Shown here: in pieces, positions 61-39,198 of the stretch
How the letters are laid out: each line of letters starts with the position of its first letter
Numbering within the stretch: the first letter of the stretch is position 1
DNA from: a virus
IMG/VR virus record: IMGVR_UViG_3300020000_000039
Location: 1 to 39,198 of that record
Length of the DNA: 39,198 nucleotides
Reading direction: 5' to 3' (one strand)
Notes under the pieces: model-generated
The model's input: the letters and a program-made list of their open reading frames with translations, nothing else
What the model was told of the DNA's origin: nothing
Database searches by the model: none
Position numbers and translations under genes: made by a program

Positions 61-369
61 CTAGGCGGGCCAGCCGTCGAAGCCGGTCGCGCGTTTGAGT
101 TTGTGTCCAAATTGCTCGGCGGTCCGGACCCGGTGACAGTCAGCGCAAAGGCTCCGGACGTTGTCGTCGCGGTCGGAGCCGCCAAGGGCTAGCGGGATGA
201 TATGATCGACGACGGTTGCGGCGCGGACCAAGCCCGCCGACTTACAGTCTCGGCATAGTGGTTCGTTGTGTAAGCGACGAAGGCGGTTGGCAACGCCGAG
301 CCTTCCCCGGACTCGTTCGTTCATGGCTGGAGCCTTTGAGCCAATGCGGCGGCATTCGGAGCGGGCCAC
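61..369 (-). CDS. HNH endonuclease
   Basis: A 102-residue HNH nuclease. Two Cys pairs (C39/C42 and C75/C78) frame the core, with a VDHIIP motif (H56), a DDN segment (N70) and H79 after the second pair. This is the usual layout of small phage HNH enzymes such as HK97 gp74, which assist terminase in cutting cos DNA. The GTG start at 369 is supported by an AGGAG ribosome binding site six bases upstream; M16 is a weaker alternative. The gene is transcribed leftward and, once the genome circularises, runs into the terminase genes at the other end of the window. The family call is secure; a role in packaging is inferred from position. Confidence 0.88.
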   Translation of the reverse strand: MARSECRRIGSKAPAMNERVRGRLGVANRLRRLHNEPLCRDCKSAGLVRAATVVDHIIPLALGGSDRDDNVRSLCADCHRVRTAEQFGHKLKRATGFDGWPA

Positions 370-433
370 TGTGGACTCCTCTCCATCGCGGGAAGGGCGG
401 TTGGTCTCCCGGACCGAACCCCGACTCTCTCCC

Positions 434-988
434 CTATGGACGCCCGCTCGGCGTCGAACTTGGCGGCGTTTGTAAGGTAACGGCGACGATAAGGAAACTC
501 GGGACCAAGACGCGCCGTCCGTCGATATCGACCAACCAGCGGTCGCGGCCCTTGCGGCTAAGGACGACGCCGACCAGCCCGCGCAATGGCCCGACGACGA
601 CGCGGACCTTTTCCCCCGGCCTAAACAGTTCGGCGACCTTGCGCGGGTCTAGGGCTTGCATGGCGACCAGTTGGTCGACCGGGACTTGCGGGCGGTCGCC
701 ATTGAAAAGGAAGGGCCAAGAGCGCGGGACGGACCCGGCTAGGCCAAGGTCGACGGCGGCGTCGGCGTGATCGAACGGGACAAAGACGAACGACGGCAAG
801 AGCGCGACGGTCCTTAGCTCCGTCTTGCGCTTGCGCGGGATGCGGAAGCGGACGGCGGCGCTTGGCGACCAGCCGCCGAAGCCCTTGGCGGCAAGCCCTA
901 GGGCTAGGTCTAGGGTCCGGGCCGACTGGCAACGGAGCGCCGCCCAACGGTCGGCTTGTTCGGGGAGCGGGAGAGTCGGGCCAAGCAT
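434..988 (-). CDS. NusG/RfaH-like transcription elongation factor, probable late antiterminator
   Basis: A 184-residue NusG-family protein. Residues about 10-100 resemble the NGN domain that contacts RNA polymerase, including a LLPSFVFV segment matching the family's fPgYvFv strand. Residues about 122-165 form a KOW-type SH3 domain starting FRPGEKVRVVVGPLRG. NusG paralogues such as RfaH and LoaP suppress pausing and termination on selected operons. The ATG at 988 is the first possible start, because an in-frame TAA lies two codons upstream; its ribosome binding site is weak. The gene is the first of the leftward late unit (then HNH, terminase, head, tail), the position of lambda Q. The fold is fairly clear; the role as late antiterminator is inference. 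Confidence 0.75.
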   Translation of the reverse strand: MLGPTLPLPEQADRWAALRCQSARTLDLALGLAAKGFGGWSPSAAVRFRIPRKRKTELRTVALLPSFVFVPFDHADAAVDLGLAGSVPRSWPFLFNGDRPQVPVDQLVAMQALDPRKVAELFRPGEKVRVVVGPLRGLVGVVLSRKGRDRWLVDIDGRRVLVPSFLIVAVTLQTPPSSTPSGRP

Positions 989-999
989 CGCTTAAGCAT

Positions 1000-1013
1000 G
1001 GGGTGATTTGCCG
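1000..1013. promoter_or_regulatory. Possible repressor half-site upstream of the NusG-like gene
   Basis: GGGTGATTT here is identical to the left half of the early operator at 10342-10361, and the right half is poor. It lies 12-25 bases upstream of the NusG-like start, so it could tie that gene to the lysogeny repressor. A match this short may be chance. Confidence 0.25.
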
Positions 1014-1088
1014 GAGTTGAGTAGCCGCCAGCATTACCTTAACTTTCGGCTAGGGCGCGTTTCCTTTCGTCGCCCTTCCCGGAAGACT

Positions 1089-1129
1089 CCCCCGCGTCGC
1101 CTAGCCTCGGCGCGGGGGTTTGCTTTTGT
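1089..1129 (+). terminator. Rho-independent terminator, plus strand
   Basis: CCCCCGCG pairs with CGCGGGGG across a 14-base loop and is followed by TTTGCTTTTG. The T-rich tail is on the plus strand, although the neighbouring gene to the left is on the minus strand. It could protect the YecR-like gene from upstream plus-strand readthrough. Read leftward it is a stable hairpin about 100 bases upstream of the NusG-like start. Confidence 0.65.
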
Positions 1130-1199
1130 TAGAGTTGAAATATCCCCCGCTCCGGGCCAATGGCCGGGAGTCCACTTTGGGACAGGGGAAGGGACTCAC

Positions 1200-1520
1200 A
1201 TGAAGAGACTGGTTATCGGCGCGGCGATGCTCGCGCTTGCGGCTTGTGCCGTGAATAAGACGCTGGTTCCGGTCGGCGGGAGCCGAGCGGACGGGACGGT
1301 TAAGCTCGCGTATGAGTTTGGCCTATTTGAAAAGCCCCGGGTCGACGCGGCGTCGGCGTTGGTCGCGGCCCGCCAGCGTTGCCAAGCGTGGGGATATACG
1401 GAAGCCGAGCCGTTCGGCGGCGCGGTGACGCAATGCCAAGCGACCAACGGTTACGGCAATTGTCTCCGGACGCTGGTAACAATCGAATACCAATGCTCGG
1501 GCGCGAACAAACCGTCGTAA
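1200..1520 (+). CDS. YecR-like lipoprotein
   Basis: A 106-residue secreted lipoprotein. The first 15 residues are a short lipoprotein signal peptide (MKRL followed by a hydrophobic run) ending in a lipobox with C16 as the lipidated Cys. The rest resembles the YecR-like family: a VPVGGS-x-ADGTVKL-xYE stretch and four further Cys residues. The ATG at 1200 follows a GGGGAAGGGA ribosome binding site. It is a single plus-strand gene between a minus-strand operon and the late operon, and it has its own terminator, which is typical of a moron expressed from the prophage. Function is unknown; an outer-membrane location is predicted. An outer spanin cannot be excluded, but no inner partner is adjacent. 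Confidence 0.75.
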   Translation: MKRLVIGAAMLALAACAVNKTLVPVGGSRADGTVKLAYEFGLFEKPRVDAASALVAARQRCQAWGYTEAEPFGGAVTQCQATNGYGNCLRTLVTIEYQCSGANKPS

Positions 1521-2622: not shown

Positions 2623-2940
2623 TTATCCGGCCCGGGCCAAGCGCCGCAAGCCGTCCAAGCATCGCCCGCATTTGCACGGCTCGGCGTCGCGGATATGCCG
2701 GACCGCGTCGGCGACGCTAGGACAGCCCCGGCTATGGAGCGCCATTCGCGCCTCCGGGTCGTCGCCTTCGTTTTGGGCGGCGTCTTGAAACGCGAAGCCC
2801 GGGACTAGGGTAACGATGCGGACGCCGTCGTCGGTCCCGGCGTCGTCGTAACATTCGACCCGGGGGTTACGGTCCAAGGTGACGCTTGGCCCCGCGTGTC
2901 CGTCGCCGCCGTCGTATTTGCTCGTCGTCTTGATCGTCAT
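2623..2940 (-). CDS. Small Cys-containing hypothetical protein
   Basis: A 105-residue acidic protein. The N-terminus is rich in Thr, Lys and Gly. The C-terminus carries a compact CKCGRC cluster in a short helical segment (DAVRHIRDAE before it, LDGLRRLARAG after it) that could bind a metal. The ATG at 2940 is preceded by AAAGGCTAG at the right spacing, the same ribosome binding site type as in the structured leaders; a longer in-frame reading to 3006 overlaps the next gene and is less likely. It is the last gene of a three-gene unit before a good terminator. Not recognised. Confidence 0.55.
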   Translation of the reverse strand: MTIKTTSKYDGGDGHAGPSVTLDRNPRVECYDDAGTDDGVRIVTLVPGFAFQDAAQNEGDDPEARMALHSRGCPSVADAVRHIRDAEPCKCGRCLDGLRRLARAG

Positions 2941-2969
2941 GGTTCTAGCCTTTCGTTTGGTCGGATTTG

Positions 2970-3236
2970 TTAAGCGTCCATCTCGGCGCGGACGGCGGCT
3001 TCCCAAGCCGCAAAGTCGGGACGGGCGTCGCCGTCGTTCCAGTAAACGGAGACGCGATTAACGAACCAGCCGTCCTTGCCGCGCGGCCCCATGCGGAAGC
3101 GGCTTTCGCGGACCTTGAATCCGGCTTGGCGAGCCTTGCCAGCGACGCGGGCGGCGACGCGCGGGTCGCGATAAGTCGCATAATCGGACGACTGGACGCG
3201 GTGCGCGTGAGCCATGCAACGGTTAGGATTTGCCAT
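2970..3236 (-). CDS. Small basic hypothetical protein
   Basis: An 88-residue basic protein of unknown function. Its middle alternates basic and aromatic residues (VRESRFRMGPRG, then KDGWFVNRVSVYW), which looks like a small beta-rich fold. The C-terminus is a short acidic helix. The ATG at 3236 is one base past the stop of the preceding gene (3238), so the two are coupled. It is the middle member of the unit headed by leader C. Confidence 0.55.
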   Translation of the reverse strand: MANPNRCMAHAHRVQSSDYATYRDPRVAARVAGKARQAGFKVRESRFRMGPRGKDGWFVNRVSVYWNDGDARPDFAAWEAAVRAEMDA

Positions 3237-3237
3237 C

Positions 3238-3510
3238 TTAGCGGCCCTTCATCTTGGCGGTTTTCTCGGCGGCGACGGCGGCTTCGAAGGCGGCGCGTTC
3301 GGCCAGCTTGGCGCGGACCGTCTCGGCGAAGTCGCGACCCTCTTGGGTCCAGCGGTCGACCGACCAAGAGCGGAAGCGCGGGATATAGACGCTTTCGCTT
3401 TCGTAAGCCGTGCCGTCGTCGAAAACGAAATAGTGATAACCCTCTCCCCGGACCAGTTCGACGGGATGGCCTTCGGCTTGGAGGCGGCGGGTTACGGTTG
3501 CGGTCGTCAT
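3238..3510 (-). CDS. Small hypothetical protein
   Basis: A 90-residue protein, not recognised. The first half is beta-like (GYHYFVFDDGTAYESESVYI), and the second half is a charged helix rich in Ala, Glu and Lys that may form a coiled coil. The ATG at 3510 lies five bases from AAAGGCTAG, the ribosome binding site at the end of leader C. It is the first of three closely spaced genes ending at the terminator at 2561-2593. Confidence 0.55.
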   Translation of the reverse strand: MTTATVTRRLQAEGHPVELVRGEGYHYFVFDDGTAYESESVYIPRFRSWSVDRWTQEGRDFAETVRAKLAERAAFEAAVAAEKTAKMKGR

Positions 3511-3775: not shown

Positions 3776-4225
3776 CTATTTTTTGCGGTTGGTCCGGCGC
3801 TTGGTCCCGAGACCGATAGCCAAGGCCAGTTCGCGGCGTTGCTCGGCATAGTTCGGCGCGACCATTGGATAATCGGCGGGAAGTTTCCAGCGGCGGCGAT
3901 AGTCGTCGGGCGTTTGTCCGTAATTCGCCATTAGGTGCCGCTTAAGCATTTTGAGTTTTTTTCCGTCCTCCAGACAAATCAAATAATCCGGCTTAATCGA
4001 CTGGCGGACCGGGACGGCGGGCGTCGGCGCGACTTCGGGCGGCGTTCCAACCGGGGAGAGCTTCGCCAGCGCCCCCCAAACGTTCGCGATAAGTTGCGGC
4101 AAGTCGGAGACGGCAACCGTATTGTTCGAAACGTGAGCCGCGACAATATCGGCGGTCGAAACGCGCAAAGCGTCGATATCATCGGCCAAAATCCGAGCCG
4201 CGTCGTCGTTATAGTTATCAGTCAT
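3776..4225 (-). CDS. MucR/Ros-family transcriptional regulator
   Basis: A 149-residue member of the Ros/MucR family, DNA-binding regulators of exopolysaccharide, virulence and cell-cycle genes in alphaproteobacteria. The N-terminal oligomerisation region (TADIVAAHVSNN, then LPQLIANVWGAL) and the C-terminal region (CLEDGKKLKMLKRHL, then LPADYPMVAPNYAEQRR) both fit closely, and length is normal. The zinc finger is degenerate: C84 is present, but the position of the second Cys is D87 and the second His is absent. This occurs in some MucR proteins that bind DNA without a classical C2H2 site. It is the last gene of the unit from 5282. It may target host genes or phage promoters. Confidence 0.9.
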   Translation of the reverse strand: MTDNYNDDAARILADDIDALRVSTADIVAAHVSNNTVAVSDLPQLIANVWGALAKLSPVGTPPEVAPTPAVPVRQSIKPDYLICLEDGKKLKMLKRHLMANYGQTPDDYRRRWKLPADYPMVAPNYAEQRRELALAIGLGTKRRTNRKK

Positions 4226-5835: not shown

Positions 5836-6978
5836 TTAACCCTTTCCAGCAAGGAACCGTTGGCAAGCCGCCTCCAAGGCTTCGGCCCGGGCGGCGATGG
5901 ACAAGGCGTCGTCCTTCAAGGCGGCGGCGGTCGCCTCCAGTTGGGCGGCGTCGACCTTGGCCCGGGCGGCGGCTTCGTTCGTGTCCTCCGGCCCGAAAAG
6001 CGCGGTCCGGATGCTCGCGACCCAAGCCCGGGGAACGCCGAGCCGCTTGGCGACGGTCTCGTCGGTAAGATCGCCGCAATAGCGGCGGGCCGTGTCGTCG
6101 AAGTGTCCGTCCAGATAATCGCGAATGCTCCGGTTCGCCTCCAGCGTCGGCGACGGCGGCGGTTCGGCTCGCGGCGGCTGGACGACGACGGCGACGGTCT
6201 CGGCTTCGGTTTGCATGGCGGACTCCTCGGTTTGGTCGGGTTGCATGGCGGGCGGGTCGAACTGATCGACGAACCGCCAGCGGAACGGGCGGCGCTCGCG
6301 ACCCGCGACCGGCTCTTCGATAAGGACGCCCGCCGCGATGGCGCGGACGACGGCGTCGTTAAACGTCCAGATATTGAAGTCGCCCCGGTGCGCGGCTTCG
6401 CGGCGTCCCGCCCAAATCCGGTTCGGATGCGCGGCGATAAAGGCCAGCATTCGCCGCTCTAGCGCGGTTGCGCCGACTTCCGACCGGCGTTCGCGCTTCC
6501 CCGGCTGGACCGGCAAGTCAGTTGCAATCTGATTATGTTGCATCGGCGCGGACTCCTTGGCGGCGGCGGTCGCGGCGCGGACCTTGGCGACTTCCTTGGC
6601 AAGAGCGCCGACCGGCTTGGCGGGCTTCGGCTTCCCCATTAGCCCGGACGCGGCGGCGGCTAGGTCGCGGTCGCGGATTGCCATAAACGCCGCCCGCTTT
6701 TGATGCGGCGGCATGGAGGACCGGCCCCCGGGCTTGTGATCGGGACAAAGGGCGTAACCGCGCTTGTCGCAAAGCCAGCCCTTTTGCTCGGCGAACTTGG
6801 CGACGCAATCGGGCGGGAGCCGGGACGCCTTCCCGGGTGAAAGCCGGAGCGTCGCCGCGCAACCGTCCTTCGCGAGACAATGAACGACATGGAACGGGCG
6901 GCGCTTATGGTCGTCGCCGCATTGCAAGAGCGTAACCGGATAGATCGCCGTCGACGTCGCGTTCGGTGTTTCCAGCAT
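5836..6978 (-). CDS. Hypothetical protein with Cys-rich N-terminus and HTH-like C-terminus
   Basis: A 380-residue multidomain protein. The N-terminal 75 residues hold several Cys and His (C20, then HVVHC, KDGC, LCDK, LCPDH) and could bind zinc. A winged-helix-like region follows near 175-235 (ERRMLAFIAAHPN, then FRWRFVD). Near 285-325 lies a helix-turn-helix-like stretch (YLDGHFDD, then ETVAKRLGVPRAWV), known from many alphaproteobacterial phage and prophage proteins. The C-terminus is an Ala/Glu-rich coiled coil. It is immediately downstream of the replication initiator, so a regulatory or replication role is plausible. Function not established. Confidence 0.6.
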   Translation of the reverse strand: MLETPNATSTAIYPVTLLQCGDDHKRRPFHVVHCLAKDGCAATLRLSPGKASRLPPDCVAKFAEQKGWLCDKRGYALCPDHKPGGRSSMPPHQKRAAFMAIRDRDLAAAASGLMGKPKPAKPVGALAKEVAKVRAATAAAKESAPMQHNQIATDLPVQPGKRERRSEVGATALERRMLAFIAAHPNRIWAGRREAAHRGDFNIWTFNDAVVRAIAAGVLIEEPVAGRERRPFRWRFVDQFDPPAMQPDQTEESAMQTEAETVAVVVQPPRAEPPPSPTLEANRSIRDYLDGHFDDTARRYCGDLTDETVAKRLGVPRAWVASIRTALFGPEDTNEAAARAKVDAAQLEATAAALKDDALSIAARAEALEAACQRFLAGKG

Positions 6979-6981
6979 TGC

Positions 6982-7710
6982 CTAGCCTCCAAGTTCGACC
7001 CGCCAAACGTGCGACGCCCAAGCGGTCTCCAGATTAGCGACGACGCCGTCGCGCTTGGCCCGCTGGCGGAAGCGTTCGACTTGCGTCGCCAGTTCGGCGG
7101 GCGACCAGCGTTCGACGAACTGGCGGGCGCGGTTGGTTTTGGGGAGCGTCGGCGGTTGCCAATCGGACGCGAGCGCGACTTTCCTTAAAACTGATTTTTC
7201 GGAATCCGCTTTAGTTACTGGTTCCTTACTAGGTTCCGTGTCGCCGCTCCGCGACCCTTTCTGTGACAAATTGCGACCGGTAGCGGGGGCGCAACCCTTT
7301 CCGAGCGGCGACCCTTTGGCCCCGTTAAAAAGGGTCGCCTTGTGTGCGACGCTTCCCGCCCCGTTCAAAGTGTCGCCGATAGAGCGACTCTTTCCAGCCC
7401 GGGAGCCGAGCCGCTTGCCGCGCTGGTCGACCAGCGGAAGCGAGTCCTCGGCATGGCGGAGTTTCCAGACTTTGACTTGCGACGTCCGCCCGCGCCGTCC
7501 GCCCGAATCTTCGATTAGCTGGAGCCGCTGGAGCCGGACCAGTTCGCGCATGATCGACGTTCGATGAAAGCCGCAAAACTCGGCAAGCCATTCGACGGAC
7601 GGCCAAGCCAAGCCGTCCTTATTGGCCCGGTCGGCAAGCGCGACCAGCAAGAGCCGCGACCGCGTCTCAATCCGCTGGCGAATCGCCCAAGTCATTGCGT
7701 CGAAACTCAT
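6982..7710 (-). CDS. Phage replication initiator with helix-turn-helix domain
   Basis: A 242-residue protein. The N-terminal 80 residues are a winged helix of the kind found in phage replication proteins (RLLLVALADRAN, AWPSVEWLAEFCGFHRTS). Residues about 95-175 are a low-complexity, Gly/Lys/Ser-rich linker. The C-terminal 65 residues are a small helical domain like DnaT/replisome-organiser tails (DWQPPTLP, then TAWASHVWRVE). The DNA coding for the linker carries six copies of a GCGACCCTTT iteron, the arrangement of lambda O and its origin. It would bind the origin and recruit host helicase. No separate helicase loader is recognised nearby. Confidence 0.75.
   Translation of the reverse strand: MSFDAMTWAIRQRIETRSRLLLVALADRANKDGLAWPSVEWLAEFCGFHRTSIMRELVRLQRLQLIEDSGGRRGRTSQVKVWKLRHAEDSLPLVDQRGKRLGSRAGKSRSIGDTLNGAGSVAHKATLFNGAKGSPLGKGCAPATGRNLSQKGSRSGDTEPSKEPVTKADSEKSVLRKVALASDWQPPTLPKTNRARQFVERWSPAELATQVERFRQRAKRDGVVANLETAWASHVWRVELGG
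7181..7393. other. Probable replication origin (iterons plus AT-rich stretch)
   Basis: Six copies of a 10-base iteron occur in 143 bases: direct GCGACCCTTT at 7251-7260 and 7308-7317, GCAACCCTTT at 7291-7300, GCGACTCTTT at 7384-7393, and inverted copies at 7329-7338 (exact) and 7367-7376 (one mismatch). An AT-rich stretch at 7181-7235 next to them could melt first. The array is inside the replication initiator gene, over its linker, as in lambdoid phages. Confidence 0.65.
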
Positions 7711-33705: not shown

Positions 33706-35037
33706 CTAGGTCGCAAGCGCCGTGATCGTGTCGCTAAAGTCGCCCTTAACGAACGCGGCGGGACGATAGACCGCCAGCGCCAACCGCTCTTCCGCGAGCA
33801 AGGTAACAAGGTTCTTGCGGAAGTTGTCGGAGTCCTCCGTCGACAATTCGACGGTCGCGTTTTGGCGGTCGAAGATTTGCGCTCCGGCCTTGAACGCGCC
33901 GACAAGGAACTTATCCAAAATCATCGCTTGCGTTGCGACAACCGGAAGCCCCCAAACGCGGGCGGCGGCTTCGCTCTTCGGGTCGCCGATAATGTAGCGG
34001 CCCGTCGAATCCTTAAGCATCTCAATCGACGCCCAATCGGTCGGATGGAGAACGATTCCGGTCGCCGGATATTCGGCAAGCGAAGCGGTAAGCATGGCGA
34101 AGCGCAAGACGTCCAACTTCGTCGCCGCCGCCATAAGCCCCGGGTCGCCGATGGCGGTCGCTTGGGTGTAAATCCCGTTAAGGTTTACGCCCGTCCCGTC
34201 GCCGTGAAGCAACTGGAGTTCTTCGGCATATTGGAGACCGTAACGAAGCCGCCCGTCGATATACGACTGGAGCATCGGGACGTCGTCCAAGATTTGCCGG
34301 GTCGCGAGAACCCAATGCGCGATTGTCGTAACCGGCGACGTCTTAAGGTCGAACTTAAGATCGCTTTGCGGCTTCAAGGTGCCGTCCTCGGCGACCGTTC
34401 CCGCCGCGTTCGTGTAACCAGTCTCTTGCGGATACTGGATAGACGACGACGACGTCCGGCCCGGAGTCAGCAAGTCGCGAACGGTAAGGTTGCGAACTGG
34501 CGGGACCAGCAACGCCCCACGGTCCGGGACGACCAAGTCGCCAGCCGCGCCCATAACGTCGGCGGTTCCGCCGCCGATGATGGCCTTAACGTCGACGCTA
34601 ACCGACTTGCCGCCCGAAGGACTGGCAAGGAACGACTTAACGGCTTCGTCCTCGATGAACCGATAACCCGGAGTCCGGGGAGTCTTCGGTTCGTCGGAGC
34701 CGCGTTCGCCCGCCGCCTTTTGCTCCAGTTCGGTAAGCCGCGCCTTGGCTTCGTTAAGCCCGGTAAGGGCTTCGTCCGCCTTGGCCTTTTCGGCTTCCGT
34801 CATGGTCTCGGCGGCGGTCGCCTTGGCGACGGCGTCGGTCGCAATCGCTTTGACTTCGTCGAACCGCTTTTCGAAGTCCGCCCGGACTTCCTTGGCAAGA
34901 TCGGCGGCGGACTTTTCGCCGCCGTCGGTCGGATGGTCCGGACCGCGCAAATAGCGACCGGCGCGGCGCTCGGCGGGAGTCATTGCGCCAAGCGTTAAGG
35001 CAAGCGGAGACGTTCCCCGCGAGAGGGTGTTTTTCAT
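33706..35037 (-). CDS. HK97-type major capsid protein
   Basis: A 443-residue capsid protein. The first 110 residues, with a long coiled coil (AEKAKADEALTGLNEAKARL), are the delta domain that is removed by the protease. The HK97 fold follows, with GDLVVPDRGALLVPPVRNL and a final STEDSDNFRKNLVTLLAEERL segment. The protease gene is directly upstream. It assembles the icosahedral head. The ATG at 35037 has a purine-rich site (GAGATG region) upstream. Confidence 0.93.
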   Translation of the reverse strand: MKNTLSRGTSPLALTLGAMTPAERRAGRYLRGPDHPTDGGEKSAADLAKEVRADFEKRFDEVKAIATDAVAKATAAETMTEAEKAKADEALTGLNEAKARLTELEQKAAGERGSDEPKTPRTPGYRFIEDEAVKSFLASPSGGKSVSVDVKAIIGGGTADVMGAAGDLVVPDRGALLVPPVRNLTVRDLLTPGRTSSSSIQYPQETGYTNAAGTVAEDGTLKPQSDLKFDLKTSPVTTIAHWVLATRQILDDVPMLQSYIDGRLRYGLQYAEELQLLHGDGTGVNLNGIYTQATAIGDPGLMAAATKLDVLRFAMLTASLAEYPATGIVLHPTDWASIEMLKDSTGRYIIGDPKSEAAARVWGLPVVATQAMILDKFLVGAFKAGAQIFDRQNATVELSTEDSDNFRKNLVTLLAEERLALAVYRPAAFVKGDFSDTITALAT

Positions 35038-35066: not shown

Positions 35067-35729
35067 TTAGCCCTTAAGCGCCGACCAAAAATCGGCGGAC
35101 GGGTTGTTCGCCCCGGACTCCCTCCGGAGCAAATCGGCCAAGCCCTTCGACGCGACGCCTTTGGCTTGGCTGTTCGAAAACCCTAACTCCCTTAGGGTCT
35201 CTTCGAATTCGCGGAGCGACGGCAACCCGCCGCCCGCTAAATGGCTTTTCACAGTGTCGACCGACGCTCGCGGTTGCGCCGGGAAGTTGACTGGCGAGAC
35301 TTCCCAAAGGTCGACTTGCTTCAAGATGCGGACGCCCGGGCGCTTCGGGTCGGTCTCCGAATCCTTGGACTCGTAACCGATGCTTAAGCCCTTCATCGCC
35401 TTGCGCTTAAGCGCCCGGTAAACCCGCGCCCCCATCGGGTCGGCTAGGTCGATATCGCCCTTAACCCAAAGCCCTTTCCCGTCCTCGGCAAGTTCGGTCC
35501 AATTGCCAATCGGCGGGTTAAAGGACTCGTGTCCCCAAAGCATTAGCGGCGACGTCCCGGCGCGACGGTGCGCGGCAAGGCTTTCGGCGAAGGCTCCCGG
35601 CGCGATAACGTCGCCGTAAGCATCGGGAGCGCCGCCGAACGTCGACGCATAGCCTTCGATTGTGCCGGTCTCGGCGTCGCCGTCGACCGCCTTTAGTTCG
35701 AACGTGAAGTCCCTACGCGCTAGCTTCAT
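35067..35729 (-). CDS. HK97-family prohead protease
   Basis: A 220-residue serine protease. It starts with the family pattern GTIEGYASTFGGAPDAYGDV, PGAFAESL, then LMLWGHE (active-site His) and KGLSIGYE (active-site Ser), followed by a helical tail. It cleaves the capsid delta domain during maturation. It overlaps the portal by 17 bases and precedes the capsid gene. Confidence 0.9.
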   Translation of the reverse strand: MKLARRDFTFELKAVDGDAETGTIEGYASTFGGAPDAYGDVIAPGAFAESLAAHRRAGTSPLMLWGHESFNPPIGNWTELAEDGKGLWVKGDIDLADPMGARVYRALKRKAMKGLSIGYESKDSETDPKRPGVRILKQVDLWEVSPVNFPAQPRASVDTVKSHLAGGGLPSLREFEETLRELGFSNSQAKGVASKGLADLLRRESGANNPSADFWSALKG

Positions 35730-37104
35730 CGGTTGAATCCTCTTCGCTGGCGGGCGGCGGCGTTTCGGTCGTTGCCGAGCCGGAGCCGTCGACAGGTTGG
35801 TTTTGCATTTGAACGCGGGCGATATCGCCGCCGTCGACGGGCGGGAGATTCTCCCAAGCCCGGACTTCGTTAATCGTATAATATCCGTTTTGAATCCCGG
35901 ACTGGTAGGAGTCCGCTCGGCTCTTGCTATCGCCGCGAAGCAAGCCGTCGATATTGAATTCGATGGTAAGCCCGGACTGTTTTTCGACCGCCGTTAAAAG
36001 CTGTTTTTCCAGCGCCATCTCTATCCGCTTCAAGCGGCGGCGGAGCGTGAACTTTTGAAAGCCTAGGGTTTGCTGTTCTAGCCCGGTTCCCCAACTGGTC
36101 GACTTTTGAGTGTGTCCAATCATAAACGGCGGGACGCCGAAAAAGCGGCAAATCTCTTCGACGCCGTAAGCCCGGGATTCGAGCATTTGGGCGTCCTCGG
36201 GATTCATCGAAATCGGTTGCCACTTCATCCCGTGATTTAGGATTAAAGGACGGCCCGCGTTCATCGCCCCGGCGTATTTTTCGTTTAGCGTCTCGTCGAC
36301 TTCGTCCATCTGAATTTTAGTCAAAGGATGCTCGGAAACGAACGCGCCGTTAGTCCGGATGCCGTTTCCGAACGTCGCTTGGCTGGCGGCGTTGGTCGTC
36401 ATTGCCGCCGCGATGGTCGACCGCGCAAACGTGAGCGTCGAAAGCCCGCCCAATGGGTTGCCGCCGAAGCCCCGGATATGAAGCATTCGGCTTTGCGGAA
36501 TCACGCGCTCCGAACCGTCGATATTGCGGACCCGGTATTCCAGCGGTCCGGCCTTGGTCCGGGTGACGTCGACCAGTTCGGGCGCAAGCGGAACGCCGAG
36601 CGCGACCGGGCGTCCGTCGCTGGTCCGCGTAATCTCGGCGTAACCGTTGCCGCGAAGCTCGATTGTCGCGGCGACAAAGTCCCAAAAGTCTAAAGCGGTT
36701 TGGTCGACGTTCGGGCTATCGTGGAGCAAATAATATAACGGATGATCGGAGGCGACGACGCGCTTCCCGTCCTTCCCGCGATAGACCATTAGCGGAAGGC
36801 TCGCGATGGTCCCGGACAAGAGATTCACGCAAGCCCAAACGGCGGACAAGGTAAGCGCGGCGGCGGTCCCGATGGCGAACCGGTCGGCAAACTCGGCGAC
36901 CGTTACTTGGTTCATCCGGAAGTTGTTTCCGTCCTCGCGGCTAATGGCGACGCCGGTTGCTGGTCCGGCGAACTGGCCTAGCCCGCCGTCCTGTCCAATC
37001 GGGATAATCGTTTTCCCGGACGACGGGAGCCGGACCAGCGCGTCGACGACGGTCCGGACATACGCCGCCAAGCTCGGCGGACGGGCGGGAAGGGCGGCGC
37101 TCAT
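35713..37104 (-). CDS. HK97-family portal protein
   Basis: A 463-residue portal. VWACVNLLSGTIASLPLMVY near residue 80, the segment around GNGYAEI and the IPQSRMLHIRGFGGN strand are hallmarks. The C-terminus is Pro/Glu rich. The ATG at 37104 overlaps the large terminase stop as ATGA, so an upstream alternative at 37125 is rejected. It forms the DNA entry ring in the head. Confidence 0.93.
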   Translation of the reverse strand: MSAALPARPPSLAAYVRTVVDALVRLPSSGKTIIPIGQDGGLGQFAGPATGVAISREDGNNFRMNQVTVAEFADRFAIGTAAALTLSAVWACVNLLSGTIASLPLMVYRGKDGKRVVASDHPLYYLLHDSPNVDQTALDFWDFVAATIELRGNGYAEITRTSDGRPVALGVPLAPELVDVTRTKAGPLEYRVRNIDGSERVIPQSRMLHIRGFGGNPLGGLSTLTFARSTIAAAMTTNAASQATFGNGIRTNGAFVSEHPLTKIQMDEVDETLNEKYAGAMNAGRPLILNHGMKWQPISMNPEDAQMLESRAYGVEEICRFFGVPPFMIGHTQKSTSWGTGLEQQTLGFQKFTLRRRLKRIEMALEKQLLTAVEKQSGLTIEFNIDGLLRGDSKSRADSYQSGIQNGYYTINEVRAWENLPPVDGGDIARVQMQNQPVDGSGSATTETPPPASEEDSTDEASA

Positions 37105-38693
37105 ACGGCGACCGCCCGGACCCATTCGTCCAGATCGACCCTAGGTTCGACCGTTTCGCCGACCGGAGCAACGCCGAACGCCATTGTTAGCGCGACGAGT
37201 CCGTCGATGCGTCCGGCGCTTTTCGCCTTGTTCAATTTGCGTCCTCCAGCCGGGTCCGTCGTAACGACCGCGTTCGCGGCGCACATCGCTAGGACCGGGT
37301 GATTCCCATGCCGCGCCTTGCCTTGGAGTAGGACCGACTCTTCGTCGCGAAGGGCGGGCGAAAAGCTCCGGAAGCCTTGTCCAAACTCGACGAAAAGTTC
37401 GTCCAAACGGGCGTCGGTAAATCCCGCCTTCAAGAGCCAAGGGCGAAGGAACTTCATCGCCCAACGGTCGAAGGCGCAACGTTTCCAGTTATGCGACTGG
37501 TCGAACGCGAAAAGCTGCGCGGCGACCCATTCGTATTCCACTGATAGCCCGGGCGTCGTCGCCAGATATCCGGCCTCGTGCCAAAGATCGTAAGGGACGC
37601 GGTCGGCGCGGGCTTTCTCTTTTAGGTTCGCGCCCGGGAGCCAAAAGGTCGACTTGACGTCCCAACGGTCCGGCTCCGTTTGTGCAATCGCAACGTGCGC
37701 CGTTAGGTCGTTCGTCGACGCCAAGTCCAAGCCCGAATAGACTTCGGCGGTCCCCCAATCGGCGGCGGGTTCGTCGCCGTTTTTGAGCCAAACCGACTTC
37801 GAAACAAACGGCGTCGATTTGTCGACTCGCTGGTTCAAAGTGTAGTTACGAAAAAGCGGCTCTTGCGACGGCAACGCCTTCGCGTTCGACGCTTGCCGCT
37901 TAACTTCGTTGGGATTCAGAAAGTCGCCGTAAGCCGGGTTCGCTTGGCGGATTGCCTTAACCGAAAACGGGTCGACCTTGTCGTCGGCACAATAGAGCGA
38001 AACGACGAACGTCGGGTCGGCGGCGGTTAGCGCGTAATCAATCAAGATCGACAATAGGTCGCCATCGGTCGGCGCTTGCGTCGATATGATGATCGACAAC
38101 GGGCGTTCGTGCGCCCCCATCGCGTTTTCGATTGCCGAGTAAAGTTCCGAGACCGGCCCCCGGACTTGGCCTAGTTCGTCGTGAACCGCGAACGGCGGGC
38201 TTAAGCCTTGGGCGGTCGACGTCTCCGAACTAAGCGCCCGGTAAAGCGTCCCAAGCTCGGAACAATAAAGCTCTTTGCGGGTCTCGCGGACGGTTACGAC
38301 CGCCCGCAAATCGGGCGACTGGCGGACGACCTTTGCCGCCAGTCCGAACAAGATCGCCGCTTGGTCCCGGCTTTGCGCGGTCGACGGGATGCCGGAGTTT
38401 CGAACCGCCTCCGGCCCGCATAAATGCAAGAGCAAGAGGAACGCCGCGAGCGACGTTTTCCCGTTCTTTTTGCCGAAGCTGATAATCGCGGTCCGCGTCC
38501 CGGACGGGTTGTCGTAAATCTTTTTAAGGTCGCGCTTTTGCCAGCTTCGAAGTTCAACCGGCTTGCCGATATCCTTGCCTTCCGGGACGACGCAATAACG
38601 CTCTATCCAAGCGATATTACGGTCGCCCCGCGTCGGAGCCTTCGGCGGGTTAAGTGGACTCCTGGCCTTCGTCTTGGCCCTTACGCTTCCCAC
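37101..38693 (-). CDS. Terminase large subunit
   Basis: A 530-residue HK97-type large terminase. Walker A is GKKNGKT at 74-80, Walker B FAVHDE at 168-173 followed by a C-motif-like ISTQAP. The nuclease domain starts with GLDLAS (D323), and a later DGLVALTMA supplies another Asp. It pumps DNA into the head and cuts it. It starts with GTG and overlaps the small subunit gene by 13 bases. Confidence 0.93.
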   Translation of the reverse strand: MGSVRAKTKARSPLNPPKAPTRGDRNIAWIERYCVVPEGKDIGKPVELRSWQKRDLKKIYDNPSGTRTAIISFGKKNGKTSLAAFLLLLHLCGPEAVRNSGIPSTAQSRDQAAILFGLAAKVVRQSPDLRAVVTVRETRKELYCSELGTLYRALSSETSTAQGLSPPFAVHDELGQVRGPVSELYSAIENAMGAHERPLSIIISTQAPTDGDLLSILIDYALTAADPTFVVSLYCADDKVDPFSVKAIRQANPAYGDFLNPNEVKRQASNAKALPSQEPLFRNYTLNQRVDKSTPFVSKSVWLKNGDEPAADWGTAEVYSGLDLASTNDLTAHVAIAQTEPDRWDVKSTFWLPGANLKEKARADRVPYDLWHEAGYLATTPGLSVEYEWVAAQLFAFDQSHNWKRCAFDRWAMKFLRPWLLKAGFTDARLDELFVEFGQGFRSFSPALRDEESVLLQGKARHGNHPVLAMCAANAVVTTDPAGGRKLNKAKSAGRIDGLVALTMAFGVAPVGETVEPRVDLDEWVRAVAV

Positions 38694-39142
38694 GGCCTTG
38701 CGCCCTTGGCGACCTTGCGTCCGGCGACCGCCGCCGCGTCCTTTTCATAACGCGACTGATTGGTAAGCCGGAGCTTCATTGCCAAGGTTACGGCGGCGCG
38801 GACTTCGACGTCCCGCCCCCGGCATATCGACCGGAAGCGGTTAAGCCCGTCCTCCGTCTTAAGCCATTCCGCGTCGAACGACTGGACTAGCCCGGAGTAG
38901 GTCGCGACCGTTTCCCGGGCGCGGCAATAATCGGCCAAGAGAGTCCGCGTCGCCGCCGTCCCGAAAAGTTCGGTCGGCTCCGTCTCGACAACGCTCCGCC
39001 AGATTGCCGCTTGCGCTTCCGTTAGATCGGCGGGCGGCGGCGGACGACCGGTCGCAAAGTCGCCGGTTATGACAGTCAGTCCCGCCTTTTTGGCGGCGCG
39101 GAGCGGAGTCGCCTTGGCGGGCGTTTTGGGACGGCGCGGCAT
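38681..39142 (-). CDS. Terminase small subunit (P27 family)
   Basis: A 153-residue protein of the P27 small-terminase family: PPPPADLTEAQAAIWRSVVE, then DYCRARETVATYSGLV and a basic N-terminus (PRRPKTPAKATPLRAAKKAG). It recognises the packaging site. The ATG at 39142 is chosen because GGAG lies nine bases upstream; a TTG two codons earlier is weaker. It is the first gene leftward from the right window end, so the late unit continues across the ends from the HNH gene. Confidence 0.85.
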   Translation of the reverse strand: MPRRPKTPAKATPLRAAKKAGLTVITGDFATGRPPPPADLTEAQAAIWRSVVETEPTELFGTAATRTLLADYCRARETVATYSGLVQSFDAEWLKTEDGLNRFRSICRGRDVEVRAAVTLAMKLRLTNQSRYEKDAAAVAGRKVAKGARPWEA

Positions 39143-39198
39143 TGGCAAAAACTCCGAAGTCCGTCCGGACCAAAAGAGGGGATTCGACTCAAAGGTGG
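39143..39198. other. Right end of window, candidate cos region
   Basis: Non-coding sequence upstream of the small terminase start. CCAAAAG (39170-39176) is inverted relative to CTTTTGG at 26-32, and GAAGTCC (39156-39162) is inverted relative to GGACTTC at 31-37. Together these put a dyad centre at the window junction. Confidence 0.4.

Follow-up and report, generated by a model that had tools for sequence, protein, structure and literature searches.

A NusG paralogue in the position of lambda Q as a candidate late antiterminator of HK97-type cos phages

The window analyzed here, i.e., the whole 39,198-nt IMG/VR record IMGVR_UViG_3300020000_000039 (positions 1 to 39,198), encodes a NusG paralogue with an NGN and a KOW domain (positions 434 to 988, minus strand) that probably fills the place of lambda Q as a processivity factor or antiterminator of the late operon. 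We infer the antitermination from fold, family, and position. Among related phages, NusG is a recurrent, though not universal, occupant of the slot ahead of the packaging genes.

The open reading frame (ATG start, TAG stop) encodes 184 amino acids, of which residues 11 to 154, most of the length, match phrog_6386, annotated as a transcription antiterminator (5.8e-13). The best NCBIfam match was UpxY (1.3e-8; 35 bits, under the cut-off of 100); RfaH (1.3e-3; 18.7 bits, under the equivalog cut-off of 144.5), NusG (0.02, under the curated cut-off), and the Pfam KOW profile (0.018, under the cut-off) scored lower still, and NusG was the top phmmer match in the PDB (1e-3). Judged by sequence profiles, the protein is a member of the NusG family outside every named subfamily; PADLOC returned no match for it. 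According to the predicted secondary structure and alignment, the NGN domain spans residues from about 13 to 112 (653 to 952, minus strand), and its strand motif LLPSFVFVPF aligns with FFPGYVLV and LFPNYLFV of NusG and RfaH. The KOW domain, a predicted beta-barrel in the model and alignment, spans residues from about 120 to 172 (473 to 631, minus strand).

The original prediction described this product as a 184-residue NGN-KOW protein and proposed a structural comparison with NusG and RfaH, which we carried out. An AlphaFold (AF2) model built from 12 homologues (mean pLDDT, 78; about 90 in the KOW block) contains an NGN-like alpha-beta domain and a KOW barrel, and a Foldseek search of the PDB ranked NusG, RfaH, and Spt5 first (6.6e-8 to 1e-6), in agreement with that description. 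Whole-chain TM-scores against these proteins were low (about 0.3), probably because the two domains are placed differently relative to each other, and the whole-chain structural match therefore depends on its rank and E-value. For the KOW part, superposition gave an rmsd of about 1 Å across 50 residues, and a second structural alignment (VIA-align) matched mostly the KOW only. Thus, of the two domains that define the NusG/Spt5 superfamily, the NGN is indicated by profiles and model and the C-terminal KOW by the structural match. The modeled KOW is a beta-barrel rather than the autoinhibited alpha-helical KOW of RfaH, although AF2 usually gives a single state only.

Several lines of evidence support the view that the phage gene is a paralogue and not a housekeeping NusG, as far as sequence comparison can tell. 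A 20-protein tree placed the three housekeeping NusGs in a clade with 100/100 support on a long branch, with no phage copy inside, and split the phage copies into several supported groups. The window gene lies outside the housekeeping clade and has no secE-nusG-rplK context, and the Rhodoplanes genome that carries prophage copies also has its own secE-nusG. The I164-F165-G166 loop of the NusG KOW contacts Rho, and loss of this contact is the first step inferred for RfaH evolution (PMC7593976). At the corresponding position, SIFGR of NusG is replaced by DIDGR in the window protein, and the other aligned phage NusG proteins also lack SIFGR; to judge from the alignment, the missing motif fits antitermination. 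A profile of the window clade gave just two weak matches in 385 genomes of the class to which Rhodoplanes belongs, and this subfamily is therefore rare in cells.

The position of the gene becomes apparent when the record ends are joined. No terminal repeat was found in the window record. In three relatives (L113, L004, and L003), the corresponding junction is contiguous and consists, with small variations, of a G-run, GTC(N)AAAAGT, about 15 nt, and CGGACACC. The window ends carry the same elements in the same order, with the break inside GGACACC, before its last C; comparison with the relatives thus places a cos-like junction at the left record end (1 to 60), joining position 39198. Because the window ends meet inside a junction that is contiguous in relatives, the real leftward order is NusG-HNH-cos-TerS-TerL-portal-protease-capsid, with the NusG paralogue as the first leftward gene, as originally predicted. 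Beside the joined junction (1 to 60 and 39140 to 39198) is a G-run of 11, with similar runs at the corresponding site in L113, L003, and L041. Many relatives' contigs start a few hundred bases before TerL or stop just past HNH.

All genes of this module lie on the minus strand. An HNH endonuclease of the HK97 gp74 kind (61 to 324; profiles, with the ATG at 324 picked by alignment) adjoins cos, followed across the junction by the small terminase TerS (38681 to 39148; phrog_12559, 7.7e-21), an HK97-kind large terminase TerL (37101 to 38693), the portal (35713 to 37125), an S78 prohead protease (35067 to 35729), and the major capsid protein (33706 to 35037), each of the last four identified by profile. 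The HNH protein gp74 of HK97 stimulates cos cleavage (PMC9410871), and HNH-cos-TerS-TerL is therefore the expected packaging module, with NusG ahead of it; the window contains such a module, with HNH next to cos, TerS, and TerL.

A TerL search yielded 80 viral and 8 bacterial loci, and phrog_6386 matched somewhere in 14 of the 80 viral records; a profile built by us added the NusG copies of Rhodoplanes elegans DSM 11907 prophages (L108 and L109). After deduplication, NusG immediately preceded HNH on the same strand in L113/L004, L021/L022, L028, L053/L054, L065/L066, L067 (with a short ORF between the two genes), L079, and L108/L109. Two long linear records, G033 (L100) and G019 (L101), the latter being the weakest member of the NusG-carrying set, have NusG at the same terminal spot, upstream of HNH once their ends are joined. 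In L113 and L004, NusG-HNH-TerS-TerL lie on a single contig, and the NusG protein is 51 to 52% identical to that of the window. An independent HNH search (80 loci, 72 of them with at least 1 kb of upstream sequence) added three NusG carriers among these 72 (L173, L180, and L182); the L182 protein (2740 to 3300), directly upstream of HNH, has an NGN domain, no recognizable KOW, and a basic C-terminus. In total, the same gene order was seen in about a dozen further lineages, with NusG proteins 19 to 53% identical to the window's and both domains kept in nearly all copies. Two records depart from the layout: in L060, NusG is on the other strand, and in L070, it is downstream of TerL. The two Rhodoplanes elegans loci share NusG coordinates and the same TerL match and lie about 63 kb apart on NZ_NHSK01000074.1, and are possibly a duplicated prophage.

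NusG occupies the slot in roughly half of the TerL relatives with enough upstream sequence and in few loci of the wider HNH search. Relatives that have the same HNH-TerS-TerL module but no NusG are equally common or commoner, and NusG is therefore not essential to the module. In NusG-less HNH loci (L143, L145, and others), unknown basic proteins are encoded just upstream of HNH (e.g., L145:2748-3326). The slot proteins of NusG-less relatives include MARGRKRKAGRRHP... (phrog_15385) and members of phrog_21451 and phrog_6836/DUF6362, and these are candidates for other late regulators. The window itself encodes a 380-aa protein (5836 to 6978, minus strand) with a C-terminal region matching phrog_21667/phrog_12127, a relative of which lies directly upstream of HNH in L161. 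No close DNA relative of the window was found among named phages, and a tblastn search of 50,697 phage records with the window and L173 proteins gave no match. Matches to L088 and L091 were rejected as phage copies: inspection of three of them revealed bacterial contigs with rfaH or secE-nusG-rplK regions, and the rest were mostly unannotated fragments. The phage-collection records AGRM01000003, AGRM01000005, and MW495066 hold such regions and look like bacterial contigs.

The genes upstream place NusG at the border between early and late genes, ahead of the late operon, where a lambda Q analogue would lie. The leftward early operon of the window contains a RusA-like gene, an O-like replication initiation gene (6982 to 7710, minus strand), and a MucR/Ros regulator, and it ends at a strong bidirectional terminator shared with a yecR-like gene (1535 to 1585; z -4.45, 0 of 200 shuffles as good). 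The same-strand replication gene upstream of NusG is a primase or primase-helicase in L065, L126, L101, L100, and L108. The Q-like position originally proposed is thus matched by the O-like gene of the window and by the primases of several relatives. In L108, the primase ends 17 nt ahead of NusG; the upstream ORF ends 27 nt ahead of it in L180 and overlaps its start in L173. These three loci have long NusG-HNH gaps (about 300 to 520 bp), which recalls the lambda order of Q, promoter, and late genes. A terminator in the NusG direction stands between the early genes and NusG in four records (the window, L113, L021, and L053), which fits NusG being the first gene of the late unit. The regulator (3776 to 4225, minus strand; ROS/MUCR, 1.9e-45) belongs to a family that we take to suggest an alphaproteobacterial host. 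The yecR-like gene (1200 to 1520, plus strand; lipoprotein family PF13992, 2.3e-24) has terminator-like hairpins on both sides and a moron-like place between the early genes and NusG.

We also examined the noncoding sequences flanking NusG. The stretch upstream of NusG that separates it from the divergent yecR-like gene (989 to 1199, minus strand) likely holds its promoter, unless NusG is expressed by read-through. The stable hairpin originally reported about 100 bases upstream of the gene is present (1089 to 1118; 11 pairs, 8-nt loop AGGCUAGG, 100 nt from the start codon), and "stable" is apt as a description, but its folding on the NusG strand is not exceptional: 19 of 200 shuffles were as good (z -1.56), which does not support it as a significant structure. 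Because its T-rich tail is on the plus strand, by consensus it looks like a rightward terminator, pointing away from NusG. A 10-bp hairpin sits about 84 nt ahead of the start codon in both L113 and L004; seven substitutions separate the two versions, and two of these form one compensated pair. At a similar distance, the window hairpin is partly alignable to it (AGCAAA, a GC-rich stem, and GCGCCGA), but weakly (under strict scoring, 65 of 300 shuffles did as well, and under lax scoring, 2 of 300). LoaP uses an RNA hairpin with a UNCG tetraloop in the leader (PMC12691694); no such loop was found near the NusG gene. The RfaH recruitment element ops was not found within 1.5 kb of the gene, with up to two mismatches allowed, and occurred at chance level elsewhere in the window. 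Words of the leader recurred elsewhere in the genome less often than those of random stretches, and an Rfam search gave no match.

Further signals came from the NusG-HNH gap, and stronger leader elements from relatives, notably a sister clade. The gap (325 to 433, minus strand), apparently noncoding, is conserved between the window and L113 (local alignment score 52, reached by none of 300 shuffles), with a conserved block, ACCAACCGCCC[C/T]T[C/G]CCGC, at 388 to 405. The gap is possibly a late promoter or leader; shuffles did not support it as a folded RNA (z 0.4). A collection scan for ACCAACCGCCCYTSCCGC from the block gave 15 matches, and those outside L004 and L113 look like chance because only these two carry NusG. 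In the L065/L122/L079 clade, the leader is hardly alignable except for a kept TTTGCATAGC[CT][CT]. TTTGCATAGC is a direct repeat, with two copies in L065 and in L122 (232 to 236 nt copy to copy); across four records, every match lies ahead of NusG on the NusG strand, and the reversed control gave none. The ops element GGCGGTAGCGTG of RfaH forms a mini-hairpin with a G4-A7 loop closed by C3:G8 (PMC5995543), and by analogy the GC-ATA-GC core of TTTGCATAGC could form an ops-like mini-hairpin; a promoter element would account for the repeat just as well. This leader element of the sister clade is a stronger candidate than the window hairpin.

Taken together, the late-antiterminator reading draws on the fold and family, the slot shared by about a dozen lineages, the primases upstream, the terminators in the NusG direction, the place outside the housekeeping clade, the lost Rho loop, the leader repeat confined to NusG, and the conservation of the gap. 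The paralogue would be made at the end of the early phase, and its NGN domain would bind the host RNA polymerase clamp shortly after the onset of late transcription. It may then travel with the polymerase over HNH, cos, TerS, and a head-tail operon of roughly 19 kb, protecting it against pausing and against intrinsic or Rho termination. In window-type phages, in which NusG lies on the late side of the terminator, the protein would promote its own synthesis. The best candidates for a recruitment site are, for the window clade, either the NusG-HNH gap or the leader of NusG and, for the L065 clade, the TTTGCATAGC repeat. Against this reading count the frequency of NusG-less relatives, the departures of L060 and L070, and a promoter search in which none could be placed. 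Terminator-like sites in the late operon likewise showed no excess (29, versus 34 in shuffles), and there is therefore no obvious terminator in it that requires antitermination.

A rival with some claim, which we nevertheless regard as unlikely, is that the protein acts as a global elongation factor, displacing host NusG and uncoupling Rho or altering translation coupling phage- or host-wide, without a late target. NGN domains compete with NusG for polymerase, and the absent Rho loop and the lack of an ops or UNCG element near the gene would suit such a factor; the recurrent placement at the early/late border and the conserved elements beside the gene in two clades speak against it. Chance capture is considerably less credible: a host gene (moron) of marginal role at the genome end would be in keeping with the adjoining yecR-like gene and its flanking hairpins, but not with the same slot being held across such divergent lineages with both domains retained in nearly all. 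Least probable of all is a packaging accessory working with HNH, TerS, and TerL at cos, for although NusG almost always adjoins HNH and cos, the NGN-KOW architecture is one that binds polymerase, the module works without NusG in many relatives, and unrelated proteins occupy the same slot. The late-antiterminator reading is thus the one that we prefer.

With lambda Q, the window gene shares the place after the replication genes and ahead of the late operon (the O/P-Q-late layout) and probably the role. It belongs to an unrelated family and has no Q-family match; Q is loaded at the late promoter region, and the window gene is followed by HNH-cos and not by lysis genes. RfaH, which suppresses polarity in long horizontally acquired operons, is likewise an NGN-KOW paralogue with the Rho loop lost, but the window protein scores far under the RfaH cut-off, lacks ops at its gene, has a predicted beta-barrel KOW, and lies in cis to the operon that it presumably serves. 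UpxY, LoaP, and the NusG paralogues of plasmid tra operons are also specialized paralogues tied to a single operon; the window protein differs from them in its subthreshold UpxY score, the missing LoaP-type UNCG hairpin, and its presumed target, phage late genes. GafZ of the Caulobacter gene transfer agent is another alphaproteobacterial antiterminator for a phage-like structural cluster, but it is described as a separate factor working with host NusG and not as a NusG paralogue (PMC11150451).

Prophage-borne rfaH-like genes have been mentioned (PMC7593976). The phrog_6386 family and two BFVD entries from uncultured Caudovirales phages, A0A6J5MAV8 (RfaH) and A0A6J5PZH6 (NusG antiterminator), share family and fold with the window protein; these are names only, and neither Q-slot placement nor mechanism is described in searchable sources. 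Phage NusG-like proteins are thus already annotated, and the proposed late-switch role and the slot are the new part. In the literature searched, which mostly excluded subscription journals, we found no account of a phage-encoded NusG as a late-gene switch or of its slot. To our knowledge, the known phage late switches (Q, Xp10 p7, sigma-like factors, and phage polymerases) are all unrelated to NusG, the only universally conserved family of elongation factors that we know of. The original prediction called a NusG paralogue an unusual late switch; this holds in comparison with lambda, but the layout is common to about a dozen lineages. The recurrence strengthens the late-switch reading beyond that prediction, yet makes the layout less singular.

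A whole group of phages probably relies on relatives of NusG for its late switch. More tentatively, and with somewhat less confidence than we place in the role itself, we propose that a large group of HK97-type cos phages, most of them uncultured, uses in place of Q a NusG recruited by a dedicated leader or gap element, in some cases with positive autoregulation, and that the slot is modular, being filled elsewhere by phrog_15385, phrog_21451, or phrog_6836 proteins. If so, these phages would provide compact, naturally occurring antitermination systems in Alphaproteobacteria as well as in other hosts, the story of RfaH, LoaP, and UpxY would extend beyond host and plasmid operons to viruses, and the Q slot would be a place to look for more unnamed late regulators.
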